Origin: Cytophagaceae bacterium
GTDB lineage: Bacteria > Bacteroidota > Bacteroidia > Flavobacteriales > Flavobacteriaceae
Direction of reading: 5' to 3'
Assembly (NCBI GenBank): GCA_002712765.1
Contig: PAUP01000021.1
Coordinates: forward strand, 1 to 40,610
Length of the DNA: 40,610 bases
The first letter of the stretch is position 1. Every line of letters starts with the position of its first letter. Below, piece by piece: positions 25,279-29,506 of the stretch. Both the position numbers and the translations under genes were made by a program. The notes beneath the pieces were generated by a model. It worked only from the letters and a program-made list of their open reading frames with translations, had not been told where the DNA came from and made no database searches.

Positions 25279-26772
25279 ATGTCTTTAAAGTCCTTTGCCG
25301 CCAAGCTATTTGCTAAAGTAATTCGGAAAAAAATTGACCGATGGGCCGATAACCCTATTGTGATTCAGGAAAAAGTATTTCAGGATCTGATTGAAAAGGC
25401 GCAGTACACTGCATTTGGCGAAGATCACAGTTTTGATGATATCGCCTGTCATGATGACTTTGTAAAATACGTACCGGTGCGCGATTATGAGGCGTTAAAG
25501 CCTTATGTAGAGCGTGTGGTAGCAGGCGAATCCGATGTCTTATGGCCTGGCAAGCCCTTGTACTTTGCGAAGACCTCTGGCACCACTTCAGGAGCCAAAT
25601 ACATCCCGCTTACCAAAGAGAGTATGCCCACACATACCGAGGCCGCCCGCAATGCAATTTTGTGTTATATCGCAGAAACCGGTCGGGCCCAATTTGTTGA
25701 TGGGAAGATGATATTTTTACAAGGCAGCCCAGAAATGACCCAAAAAAATGGCATTCAAATAGGCCGTCTCTCGGGTATAGTGGCACATTATGTTCCAAAT
25801 TATTTGCAACGCAATCGTTTGCCAAGTTGGGAGACCAACTGTATTGAAGACTGGGAAACAAAAGTAGACGCCATTGTCGAAGAGACCCTAGATCAAGACA
25901 TGACCATCATAAGCGGAATCCCATCTTGGGTTCAAATGTATTTTGAACGCCTAAAAGCCAAAAGCGGCAAAAAGATTGGAGACCTCTTTCCCAATTTTAA
26001 TTTATTTATTTACGGCGGTGTCAATTACCAGCCCTATCGGGCTAAATTTGAGCATTTGATAGGTAGGTCTGTAGATAGCATAGAACTTTATCCTGCTAGT
26101 GAAGGCTTTTTTGCTTTTCAAGATTTGCAAACCGAGAAAGGCATGTTGCTGCAACTAGACAGCGGTATTTTTTATGAGTTTATTCAGGCCGACACCTTTT
26201 TTGATGAGCAGCCCGAGCGCCTTACCATAGGCCAGGTTGTCTGTGGGGTAAATTATGTAATGATTATTTCTACTACAGCTGGTTTGTGGGGATATAATGT
26301 TGGAGATACGATTCAGTTTACGAGTACCTCTCCGTATCGCGTTGTGGTATCAGGGCGTATTAAGCACTTTATTTCGGCATTTGGCGAACACGTTATAGGC
26401 AAAGAAGTAGAGCAAGCCATGCAAGAGGCGGTCCAAGAGCAAGCCATACGAGTGAGTGAATTTACCGTAGCCCCTCAAACCAATCCTGCCCAAGGCTTAC
26501 CCTATCACGAGTGGTTTATAGAAATGGAGTCTGACCCTTTGACAGTAGATATGGACGCTTTCGCGAAAGCGTTAGACCAGGCATTACAAGCTCAAAACAG
26601 TTACTATTACGATTTAATACAGGGAAAGGTACTACAGCCTTTAAAAATAGCTTTGGTCCAAGAAAATGGTTTTAATACTTATATGAAATCTCAAGGAAAG
26701 CTAGGTGGACAAAACAAAATACCCCGATTGGCAAACGACCGTAAGATCGCCGATCAATTACCGATTATTTAA
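25279..26772 (+). CDS. GH3-family acyl-adenylating enzyme
   Basis: This 497-residue protein belongs to the GH3 family (plant GH3 proteins conjugate auxin or jasmonate to amino acids through an acyl-adenylate). The three adenylate-forming motifs are present: AKTSGTTSGAKYIP, YPASEGFFAF and YNVGD. Two-domain length is normal. The bacterial substrate is not known. It sits 2 bp after an M23 peptidase and just before a DUF6909 gene that has its own promoter element. A palindrome copy encodes A427-A431 near the C-terminal domain. Confidence 0.88.
   Translation: MSLKSFAAKLFAKVIRKKIDRWADNPIVIQEKVFQDLIEKAQYTAFGEDHSFDDIACHDDFVKYVPVRDYEALKPYVERVVAGESDVLWPGKPLYFAKTSGTTSGAKYIPLTKESMPTHTEAARNAILCYIAETGRAQFVDGKMIFLQGSPEMTQKNGIQIGRLSGIVAHYVPNYLQRNRLPSWETNCIEDWETKVDAIVEETLDQDMTIISGIPSWVQMYFERLKAKSGKKIGDLFPNFNLFIYGGVNYQPYRAKFEHLIGRSVDSIELYPASEGFFAFQDLQTEKGMLLQLDSGIFYEFIQADTFFDEQPERLTIGQVVCGVNYVMIISTTAGLWGYNVGDTIQFTSTSPYRVVVSGRIKHFISAFGEHVIGKEVEQAMQEAVQEQAIRVSEFTVAPQTNPAQGLPYHEWFIEMESDPLTVDMDAFAKALDQALQAQNSYYYDLIQGKVLQPLKIALVQENGFNTYMKSQGKLGGQNKIPRLANDRKIADQLPII
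26557..26570. repeat. Dispersed palindrome GCTTTCGCGAAAGC, copy 7
   Basis: Exact copy with flanking C/G in the GH3 gene, read as Ala-Phe-Ala-Lys-Ala. Confidence 0.95.
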
Positions 26773-26790: not shown

Positions 26791-28479
26791 ATGAGTATAT
26801 TAAAAAAACAAGGGCGCACACGTGCACAAGAGAGCAGCAGCGCTATAGAGCGCATGTATATTACCATGCGCCACCTCTTCAACAGAGGATTCTACAAACC
26901 TATGGGTGTTTCTGGAGAAACACTGCGGGAAGCACTTCTAATTTTACGACCTGAAATTTACGGAACTATAGCCGAAGAAAAGGTAGAACTCAGTGGCTTA
27001 TTATATGTTATTGATAGACTACCCGAGGGTATAGAAGAATGTCGTTTTATCAACCTTACCAGTGATGAAGGGTATAAAAACAGTCATTTTACACCTATAG
27101 TGCCGCCTAAAAGAAGACGCAATTGCTATCGTATTGACGATGAGCAAATGAATATTGAAATTACTAGAGGACGTTCTGAAATCTATGATATTCTAACCCA
27201 TCTTACCTTTTTGTTTATCGAATCACACAAAATTATGCACCGTGTAGTGATCAACGAGGAAGGCAGTGTGGTACGCGATTGGGAAAAATTGGAAAAAGCA
27301 GTGCTTTCTGAGGACGAATTGGATCAAAAAGAGCGAGAGATTGCCATTACACATACCGCCAATATTCTAGGACGCACCTTTGAGGAGGTAAGAGCCATTG
27401 CCCCGTTATTTAACACGGCCAATAATAACAAGCGTTTTCTTCAAATTATCTATTGGTTAGGGAAACTCGCCATTGCCGAATCGGTAAAAGACGAGAAGCG
27501 GGTAGTTACTTTTAGCCCTGTTTTGCGAGAGCGCTTAGGACATCATATCCATGGTGAGGTCTGGGCATCAGACATAAAAAAAGCGCTAAAAGAGTTAGGA
27601 CTATTGCATCGCCCTATTCACATTATTAGTGCCAATATGCACTCTGTGATGAATACTCTCTATGCCCCTCTAGCTTTAAAAACAGAGTTAAAAAAGAAGA
27701 CAAAACTCGAAATGTATGAGCAACTTAGTAAAAGTGAGTCTACAGCCCTTCGTACTAAGGTGGAGAAAACAGCCCTAAAAAATGGAATGACCTTTCTTCC
27801 TGATGAAAGCGGCACCAATATCGACGTACAGATATTTGATATGTGCAAACTCAAGGTTGCCGATAATGATTTTTGTGACACCCCTACGCAACCAGAAGCG
27901 GTTCCTGTCATCTTAGTAATGGACTACGCCTTTGGCGAGCAGGCTTATGAAACCATGGAAGAGCTGCTAAAACCTTATGAGCAAGAGAATGAGCGCACCT
28001 ATCTCGATGTAGATTCGGTGTCAATTATGGGTAAAGCGGGTATACTTGAAGGAGGGAAAGGAGATATTATGATACCCTCGGCTCACCTTTTTGAAGGGAC
28101 CGCCGATAATTACCCCTTTAATAATGAACTCAAGAAATCTGATTTTGAAGGCCAGGGATTAAAAGTATTTCAAGGAGCGATGGTCTCTGTTTTGGGGACT
28201 TCCTTGCAAAATCGAGATATTCTTAAGTTCTTTCACGAGAGTACTTGGAATGTTATAGGTTTGGAAATGGAAGGAGCCCATTACCAGAAAGCCATACAAG
28301 CCTCGTCCAAATTGCGCGGAAGCATACAAGAAGATGTAAAGGTGAGATATGCATACTATGCCTCAGATAATCCCTTAGAAACAGGCAGCACATTGGCTTC
28401 TGGAGGATTGGGCACTACAGGTGTCAAACCAACATATTTGATTACTGAGAAAATATTAAAGCAAATTTTTAGTTCATAA
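26791..28479 (+). CDS. DUF6909-like protein with nucleoside-phosphorylase-like C-terminus
   Basis: A 562-residue soluble protein; the ATG is chosen over an in-frame TTG that overlaps the promoter element. The N-terminal half is mostly helical without familiar motifs. The C-terminal part (about 375-555) has features in the order seen in the purine nucleoside phosphorylase/nucleosidase superfamily: a glycine-rich loop ending GGKGDIMIP (421-429), then GLEMEGAHY (E492-M493-E494-G495; this superfamily uses a Met-Glu pair to bind ribose), then SDNP (525-528), where the superfamily has a catalytic SD. This suggests a nucleosidase or phosphorylase acting on a purine nucleoside or nucleotide. I associate the whole protein with DUF6909, but the enzymatic reading is inference. 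Confidence 0.7.
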   Translation: MSILKKQGRTRAQESSSAIERMYITMRHLFNRGFYKPMGVSGETLREALLILRPEIYGTIAEEKVELSGLLYVIDRLPEGIEECRFINLTSDEGYKNSHFTPIVPPKRRRNCYRIDDEQMNIEITRGRSEIYDILTHLTFLFIESHKIMHRVVINEEGSVVRDWEKLEKAVLSEDELDQKEREIAITHTANILGRTFEEVRAIAPLFNTANNNKRFLQIIYWLGKLAIAESVKDEKRVVTFSPVLRERLGHHIHGEVWASDIKKALKELGLLHRPIHIISANMHSVMNTLYAPLALKTELKKKTKLEMYEQLSKSESTALRTKVEKTALKNGMTFLPDESGTNIDVQIFDMCKLKVADNDFCDTPTQPEAVPVILVMDYAFGEQAYETMEELLKPYEQENERTYLDVDSVSIMGKAGILEGGKGDIMIPSAHLFEGTADNYPFNNELKKSDFEGQGLKVFQGAMVSVLGTSLQNRDILKFFHESTWNVIGLEMEGAHYQKAIQASSKLRGSIQEDVKVRYAYYASDNPLETGSTLASGGLGTTGVKPTYLITEKILKQIFSS

Positions 28480-28501: not shown

Positions 28502-29506
28502 ATGAATACACAACAGCCTCCTGCTGCGGCAGACGAGATGGATCTCACTGATATATTCGATCTGTTTAAGCGCGGGTTCTACAAATTTTTAGCCTTGTGT
28601 TTTAAGGCGTTCGATTTTATAGTAAAGTTTTGGTGGATGCTACTCATCCTGATTGTTTTAGGTGCTGCCCTAGGTTATTTCACCAAAGGTAAACCCTACT
28701 ATACCTCAACTCTAGTGATTCAAACTAATTTTGACAGTCAACCCTATGTGTATAATGCCATAGACCAGTTTAATGACAATCTAGGCGAGAATGATCTAGC
28801 GTTTATTGAAAGTGTTGGCTTAAACCCTGCCAATCCTGGAATAGGAGACATCACCATCCAACCAGTTATAGATGTAGTTGGTCTTATGGAAGATATGGAG
28901 GTTTCAGAACGTACCTTAGGTACCATCATAGACGAGTTAAGTGTAGATGACGACACCGAATTGTTTGCCACCGATCGCTTTTATACCAACTACAAATACC
29001 ACAAAATGGAAATCACCCTTAGCGGGGAAGATAAATTGGCCAGTATCGAAGTCTTGATGGATTACATCAATAATCAACCATTTGTCAAGACCTTACGGGA
29101 TGAGACGGTCAAAAACTTAAAGGATCGTATTGCTAAAAATGAAAAAACGGTAGATCAGATCGACATGTTGATAGAGAATTATTCTAAAAATGCAGATCTG
29201 GCCAATCGCAGCATTAGTAGTTTGACCTACTTTAACAATCAAAACGATTTGAATGTTAATGGTACTTTGACCTTTAAAAATGATCTAATCACCGAAACCG
29301 AAGAATTAAAAAATAATTTAATCACCTATACCGATGCTGCGGTCGTTGTTAGTGATATTCAAACAGCCGAAGAGCGAAAACTCAAGGACAAAAAAGAAAT
29401 TATATATCCGGCAGTATTGGTTTTCCTATTTCTTTTCTTTGCGGCCTTACGCTATTTCTACATCACAATGAGAAGAGAAGTAGCCCAAATGCAACTGTTA
29501 GATTAA
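28502..29506 (+). CDS. Wzz-like polysaccharide chain-length determinant
   Basis: This 334-residue protein has two membrane helices, near 42-62 and 300-321, enclosing a periplasmic helical and coiled-coil domain. This is the polysaccharide co-polymerase topology. The inner part is acidic, with a helical hairpin region around 205-290. It has no cytoplasmic tyrosine-kinase domain. It is the first gene of the polysaccharide locus and should set polymer chain length together with the Wzy-like protein downstream. gmd follows 46 bp later. Confidence 0.75.
   Translation: MNTQQPPAAADEMDLTDIFDLFKRGFYKFLALCFKAFDFIVKFWWMLLILIVLGAALGYFTKGKPYYTSTLVIQTNFDSQPYVYNAIDQFNDNLGENDLAFIESVGLNPANPGIGDITIQPVIDVVGLMEDMEVSERTLGTIIDELSVDDDTELFATDRFYTNYKYHKMEITLSGEDKLASIEVLMDYINNQPFVKTLRDETVKNLKDRIAKNEKTVDQIDMLIENYSKNADLANRSISSLTYFNNQNDLNVNGTLTFKNDLITETEELKNNLITYTDAAVVVSDIQTAEERKLKDKKEIIYPAVLVFLFLFFAALRYFYITMRREVAQMQLLD

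Follow-up and report, generated by a model that had tools for sequence, protein, structure and literature searches.

The DUF6909 protein encoded in the window, the 40,610-nucleotide stretch of Bacteroidota DNA analyzed here, most likely represents an unrecognized family of the purine-nucleoside-phosphorylase (PNP)/nucleosidase superfamily. We consider it probable that the protein hydrolyzes AMP to adenine and ribose 5-phosphate, and that it replaces the short AMP nucleosidase in members of the Bacteroidota where that enzyme is absent. This proposal is supported by the predicted fold, the invariance of the catalytic residues and the mutual exclusion of DUF6909 and the short AMP nucleosidase among genomes. 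The gene and its two domains are located as follows:

26791 to 28479, forward strand: DUF6909 protein, 562 aa from the ATG at 26791, an N-terminal domain followed by a PNP-superfamily core.
26791 to 27540, forward strand: N-terminal domain, residues 1-250, helices and a small sheet, with residues 1-40 of low confidence in the model.
27556 to 28476, forward strand: PNP/uridine-phosphorylase-superfamily core, residues 256-562, recognized with Foldseek and VIA-align.

Pfam assigned the 562-aa protein to DUF6909 (PF21850, E 2.1e-65), a family named in none of the papers covered by our literature search, which was confined to open-licence PMC articles. The open reading frame list allowed an alternative TTG start 12 bases upstream of the ATG, which would yield 566 aa; the alignment of relatives starts near the ATG at 26791. 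No reverse-strand open reading frame of at least 100 aa in that list overlapped the gene. Searches of the window protein against NCBIfam profiles returned a single row at chance level (E 0.15), with none of the AMP nucleosidase models, TIGR01721/NF005500 included, giving a row at E <= 1. Likewise, PF01048 (PNP_UDP_1) gave no row at E <= 1 for the window protein, its gathering cut-off not being reached, and searches of PDB sequences with the window protein or with a 48-row profile produced no meaningful match. A weak sequence signal was carried by the relatives: at E <= 0.1, PF01048 was hit by 22 of 48 (best E 0.0015), and apart from DUF6909 no other Pfam family was hit by two or more of these 48 members.

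The sequence-only reading had proposed a hidden member of the PNP/nucleosidase superfamily, and the predicted structure bore this out. An AlphaFold2 model, built from the window protein aligned with 80 relatives, had a mean pLDDT of 78.7, with residues 1-52 below 50. The superfamily alpha/beta core (about 230 residues, PNP topology) was present in this model by both Foldseek and VIA-align. Foldseek matched the model to 183 PDB chains at E <= 0.001 (best E 3.7e-7), and all of the 50 matches listed fell into a single superfamily of phosphorylases and nucleosidases, the AMP nucleosidases 2guw (7.6e-7), 1t8s, 7uwq and 1ybf among them; these superpositions were loose, with rmsd values of 4.7 to 22 among the matches listed. 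The best VIA-align match had a Z score of 18.1 and an rmsd of 2.8 Å over 213 aligned residues in the model range 256-561. Across the 50 VIA-align matches listed, Z ranged from 17.3 to 18.1, with PNP and uridine phosphorylases, MTA/SAH nucleosidase and futalosine hydrolase (PF01048) sharing the core fold; since matches no more than 1 Z apart count as ties, no superfamily branch is singled out by the fold search. The predicted core is larger than the range of residues 375-555 anticipated for it and spans about 256-562. Judged from the model, membership of DUF6909 in this structural superfamily can be regarded as very likely, almost to the point of certainty.

The motifs on which the assignment of an active site depends were located at these positions, all of them within the core:

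27619 to 27645, forward strand: H277-S285 (HIISANMHS), proposed first strand and nucleotide-contact loop.
27922 to 27942, forward strand: D378-Q384 (DYAFGEQ), invariant, at the place of the nucleosidase Gly-rich loop (NFGMGS in the short AMP nucleosidase) in an hhalign register that is not significant alone.
28027 to 28047, forward strand: M413-L419 (MGKAGIL), corresponding to GKCGGL of the short AMP nucleosidase.
28060 to 28077, forward strand: G424-P429 (GDIMIP), the superfamily GD strand inside GGKGDIMIP, with K423 and D425 invariant.
28093 to 28113, forward strand: E435-Y441 (EGTADNY), common to the short AMP nucleosidase.
28189 to 28212, forward strand: V467-N474 (VLGTSLQN), at the place of Amn R381/W383 by eye, with G469 to N474 present in 133/133 sequences.
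28258 to 28275, forward strand: G490-G495 (GLEMEG), the ribose-binding Met-Glu with E494; E492, M493, E494 and G495 in 133/133.
28363 to 28377, forward strand: S525-L529 (SDNPL), the catalytic Asp D526 and the P-L/M continuation as in AMP nucleosidases, in 133/133.

Counted from the ATG at 26791, GGKGDIMIP at 421-429 and SDNP at 525-528 lie exactly where the sequence-only reading had put them, as do the Met-Glu pair M493-E494 and the Asp D526; GLEMEGAHY is also present but at 490-498, one position lower than the 491-499 claimed for it. Conservation was assessed in the window protein and 125 relatives, a set of 126 rows from which six repeat loci (L081, L082, L083, L102, L104 and L108) and one extra fragment at L077 had been left out, and in a set of 133 sequences that added seven relatives from two further families. 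G421, K423, D425, E492, M493, E494, S525, D526, N527 and P528 were identical in 126/126, as were K415, G417 and numerous further positions, and all of the positions from K423 to P528 named in this series were again identical in 133/133, window included, at identities to the window protein as low as 54%. With key positions invariant in 126/126 and most of them in 133/133, the three motifs are not a product of chance, and the family-wide conservation of E494 and D526 expected of a true active site was found. Two further reading frames were noted: a second, partial DUF6909 frame at L077:11299-11748 on the reverse strand (275 bits), at the locus end beside the intact gene, and a 654-aa frame at L115:4566-6530 on the forward strand, roughly 90 residues longer than that of the window, whose start may be misjudged.

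The catalytic residues can be placed on a characterized enzyme. In a cryo-EM study of Klebsiella Amn, N205, W383, M404, E405 and D428 surround the base and sugar, H188, Y189 (from the other chain), R381 and K436 form the phosphate site, and its more distant homologues keep only M404, E405 and D428 (PMC9584410). M493, E494 and D526 of DUF6909 correspond to M404, E405 and D428; this placement follows from the order of the motifs and the hhalign register against the short AMP nucleosidase rather than from superposing structures residue by residue. N282 (133/133) falls at the place of Amn N205 when matched by eye, and N282 together with H251 (130/133) and H252 may match N205 and H188/Y189, a reading by eye across a length difference. 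Matched by eye, R381 of the phosphate site and W383 are replaced by T470 and L472, both invariant in DUF6909, and no sure counterpart of K436 was apparent. Because of these differences from the Amn site, AMP as the substrate is a prediction only.

Several short motifs are shared with AMP nucleosidases. SDxP[LM] occurs in 133/133 DUF6909 sequences, in 50/52 short and 7/7 long AMP nucleosidases, and in 0/55 controls (0/12 UP/DeoD, 0/13 MTAN/futalosine-like and 0/30 class-I PNP). This pattern separates the groups less than 0/55 implies, since SD is found at that place at all in only 5/55 of the non-AMN controls by eye. GK[CA]G was found in 133/133 DUF6909, 36/52 short and 0/7 long enzymes and in 0/55 others, and EG[TS]...Y in 133/133 DUF6909, with EGT...Y in 34/52 short enzymes and 0/62 of the other sets. 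SDxP[LM], GK[CA]G and EGT...Y were chosen after both families had been seen, and SDxP[LM] is not a published definition. The short AMP nucleosidase (TIGR01721/NF005500; 1ybf) has the superfamily fold in common with DUF6909 and carries GK[CA]G, EGT...Y, the ME pair (52/52) and SDxP[LM] in the same order, but it is mostly about 256 aa long, without the 250-residue N-terminal domain of DUF6909, and has NRRVW where DUF6909 has GTSLQN, at the place of Amn R381/W383 by eye. The long Amn of E. coli and Klebsiella (TIGR01717, PF10423; 1t8s, 2guw, 7uwq) resembles DUF6909 in having an extra N-terminal domain ahead of the PNP core, in [ED]ME and SDxPL and in the predicted structure (Foldseek E 7.6e-7 to 2guw_B); it differs in its PF10423 N-terminal domain, which was not found in DUF6909, and, by eye, in the R381 and W383 noted above. 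The remaining PF01048 enzymes share the ribose-site Met-Glu and, in part of them, the catalytic Asp, but lack a DUF6909-type N-terminal domain and, in the 55 examined, SDxP[LM].

A closer sequence kinship with AMP nucleosidases was considered and dropped, as hhalign comparisons with single E. coli sequences and with small and larger sets were unconvincing and showed no AMP nucleosidase preference. The E-values of DUF6909 were 0.0024 against class-I PNP (the lowest), 0.0037 against a mixed non-AMN set, 0.011 against UP/DeoD, 0.014 against the short AMP nucleosidase, which is not significant, 0.028 against long Amn and 0.29 against the MTAN/futalosine-like set, 11 of whose 13 proteins look futalosine-hydrolase-like by eye (ending in SN, not SD). 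The best blastp E-value against the short enzyme was 5e-6 in a 126-sequence set and 0.008 at a larger database size. In these profile checks against the PNP superfamily and Amn, of a kind put forward together with the original motifs, the register was sensible in several comparisons, none was convincing, and Amn was not favored. At the level of sequence, these profile results argue against a demonstrable common branch with AMP nucleosidases and not against that function. Since the profile tests failed, DUF6909 is not filed under TIGR01717, TIGR01721 or PF01048.

Further evidence for a connection to AMP came from gene content. PF10423, the N-terminal domain of the long-type Amn, was found in 0/395 Bacteroidota genomes, and many Bacteroidota carry the short type of AMP nucleosidase, with about 256 aa. 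Its Pontibacter representative, WP_068840264, scored 422 bits with NF005500 and 328 bits with TIGR01721 and has 1ybf as its nearest structure. TIGR01721 is graded as a "hypoth_equivalog", and the activity of the short enzyme rests on annotation and PDB entry 1ybf, for which the search of open-licence PMC articles found no paper. The same genomes were searched with DUF6909 and with the short AMP nucleosidase protein. Amongst 296 genomes of the class, 26 had DUF6909, 208 had the short enzyme (at E <= 1e-20), 62 had neither and none had both, with 18.3 expected to have both (Fisher 1e-15). Families f5, f8, f56 and f100 contain both kinds of gene, in different genomes. A denser sample of family f5 (n=70) comprised 32 genomes with DUF6909, 36 with the short enzyme and two with neither, so that 68/70 had exactly one; both genes were expected together in 16.5 genomes and seen in 0 (Fisher 6e-18). 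At the scale of the phylum (n=395), the 56 genomes with DUF6909 did not overlap with the 40 class members carrying the short enzyme at E < 1e-100. Weak matches to the short enzyme (2.6e-9 to 5.2e-6) were obtained in 10/56 DUF6909 genomes; the one in the window's genome is a DeoD-like gene, and the other nine are assumed to be the same.

The Fisher values ignore relatedness, for which an RpoB tree is the better guide. In a tree of 29 genomes the gene label changes 6 times, 5 of these changes being forced by well-supported branches. These genomes were chosen for carrying exactly one of the two genes, with "neither" genomes excluded, so the tree counts switches, not losses; the window's genome, which is 78% complete, is absent from it for want of an RpoB match. 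We infer from this repeated replacement without coexistence the pattern of functional equivalents of different origin. The link to AMP, previously no more than conceivable from the sequence, thus gained support from the mutual exclusion in the 296-, 70- and 395-genome samples. Adenosine and methylthioadenosine, put forward as substrates alongside AMP, gained no such support. As a separate observation, loci L247-L254, several of them from family f24, encode relatives of the short AMP nucleosidase (31-36% identity, 392-396 aa) that perhaps represent another architecture.

The exclusion would also be compatible with a nucleosidase that has this fold but uses a different 5'-substituted nucleoside or nucleotide as its substrate, such as IMP, GMP, NMN or a modified nucleotide, if the two families shared a broader role. 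The fold and the catalytic Asp and Glu suit many superfamily members, the profiles show no AMP nucleosidase preference, different residues occupy the places of Amn R381/W383, and the AMP activity of the short enzyme is itself an annotation. Nevertheless, the gene excluded by DUF6909 in the 70 and 296 genomes is the one annotated as AMP nucleosidase, and other PF01048 genes are kept in all three DUF6909 genomes among the 40 examined (2, 4 and 4 matches, of which one is interrupted by an internal stop). Additionally, among the sets compared, SDxP[LM] is found only in AMP nucleosidases. We consider such a different substrate unlikely.

A nucleoside phosphorylase, using phosphate instead of water on adenosine, guanosine or a pyrimidine nucleoside, has in its favor that many of the best structural matches among those listed are phosphorylases and that class-I PNP gave the lowest hhalign E (0.0024). 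However, the phosphate-site arginines of DeoD, which we take to be R24 and R87, fall on S285 and I412 by eye, the exclusion partner is a nucleosidase, and the window's genome retains one DeoD-like and one UP-like gene. Phosphorolysis therefore appears distinctly improbable.

Under the preferred reading as an AMP nucleosidase, M493-E494 would hold the ribose, D526, which follows S525, would protonate the leaving base, and water rather than phosphate would attack C1'. Residues that vary little or not at all would hold the 5'-phosphate, namely K415 of GKAG and perhaps N282, H251/H252 and the loop at 534-546; the Arg/Trp pair of the E. coli-type Amn would not be used for this purpose.

The N-terminal half had been described as unfamiliar from its sequence, and the first 250 residues did remain without a fold match in Foldseek or VIA-align. 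Modelled alone, residues 1-252 reached a pLDDT of 80.1; against the PDB, the best Foldseek E of 0.4 and the best VIA Z of 3.5 were treated as noise, and the domain may nevertheless have a known fold. PF10423 gave no row at E <= 1 for the window protein. A by-eye resemblance of a hairpin and helix to the Amn N-terminal domain was rejected, given an hhalign E of 0.33 and a shuffle P of 0.57 for the best diagonal, below which the by-eye diagonal scored. R27, H28, R76, R108, R110, R114, E123, D133, H137 and E144 are identical in 133/133 sequences. The domain is probably an extra regulatory or capping domain; its invariant polar residues could form a binding site, perhaps one that senses ATP, phosphate or an alarmone, or a second active site with an activity of its own. 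These ten polar residues and the missing fold match would also suit a protein in which the N-terminal domain provides the main activity and the PNP-like part serves as a catalytically dead or regulatory sensor. The Glu that binds ribose and the catalytic Asp are, however, also invariant (133/133), which is unusual for a dead domain, and this reading is very improbable.

DUF6909 was identified in 56 genomes of the phylum sample, 41 of them from the window's family and 15 from others, and in 0/14 control genomes outside the Bacteroidota. A genome scan returned at least 590 loci, of which the best 80 all belong to Flavobacteriaceae or Flavobacteriales judging by their titles. No relatives were found in the phage collection, nor in viral contigs by a close-relative scan. 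The plasmid collection held two Persicobacter records with DUF6909 at 59-60% identity (CP012860.1, 236948-238621; NZ_AP025295.1, 282154-283824). In the window, the gene is preceded by the following neighbor:

25279 to 26772, forward strand: GH3 acyl-amido synthetase (Pfam GH3, 5.1e-43), separated from DUF6909 by an 18-base gap; context, not part of the enzyme.

An M23 peptidase gene ends 2 bases ahead of the GH3 gene, whose product is a possible amino-lipid ligase. The protein resembles OlsH (NCBIfam NF052613, 384 bits against a cut-off of 620). OlsH makes lyso-ornithine lipid in an ATP-dependent manner, and the authors of the OlsH study expected its mechanism to resemble that of the plant GH3 enzymes, in which AMP is released (PMC12493201). 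As the GH3 protein resembles OlsH, a coupling of DUF6909 and GH3 through AMP is possible in the window's family. GH3 is directly upstream in 82/100 DUF6909 loci, which divide into 82/85 in or near the window's family and 0/15 in other families. The adjacency behind the earlier suggestion of an AMP link thus holds in or near the window's family and was not seen in the loci of other families, which makes the argument weak.

Other lineages showed neighbors of their own. In family f2, the cluster with a type III glutamine synthetase (L124 member) was present in 8/8 loci and that with an M1 peptidase (L124 member) in 7/8; an HAD hydrolase and a GH65-like gene were present in 2/3 loci of f5, and a Met-sulfoxide-reductase cluster in 4/4 of f8. 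There were no purine-salvage enzymes among the ten neighbor proteins identified by Pfam, most neighbors lying outside those ten, and no neighbor clusters were common to DUF6909 loci and the four short AMP nucleosidase loci compared. Downstream in the window, 28502 to 29506 on the forward strand encodes a 334-aa protein without a Pfam match at E <= 0.001, which we take to be Wzz-like and to precede polysaccharide genes.

Altogether, we see about even chances that DUF6909 constitutes a further architecture of AMP nucleosidase, observed to date in Bacteroidota only, in which a new 250-residue domain acts as sensor or cap and the 5'-phosphate is bound at a different site, and that it has been swapped with the short enzyme at least five times. 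A family of unknown function thereby gains a concrete substrate prediction, and with it comes a possible way for bacteria that lack a recognizable AMP nucleosidase to cleave AMP. The one-or-other pattern (68/70) has the look of displacement among enzymes that are related only very distantly, and a new mode of controlling adenylate pools may come to light through the extra domain.
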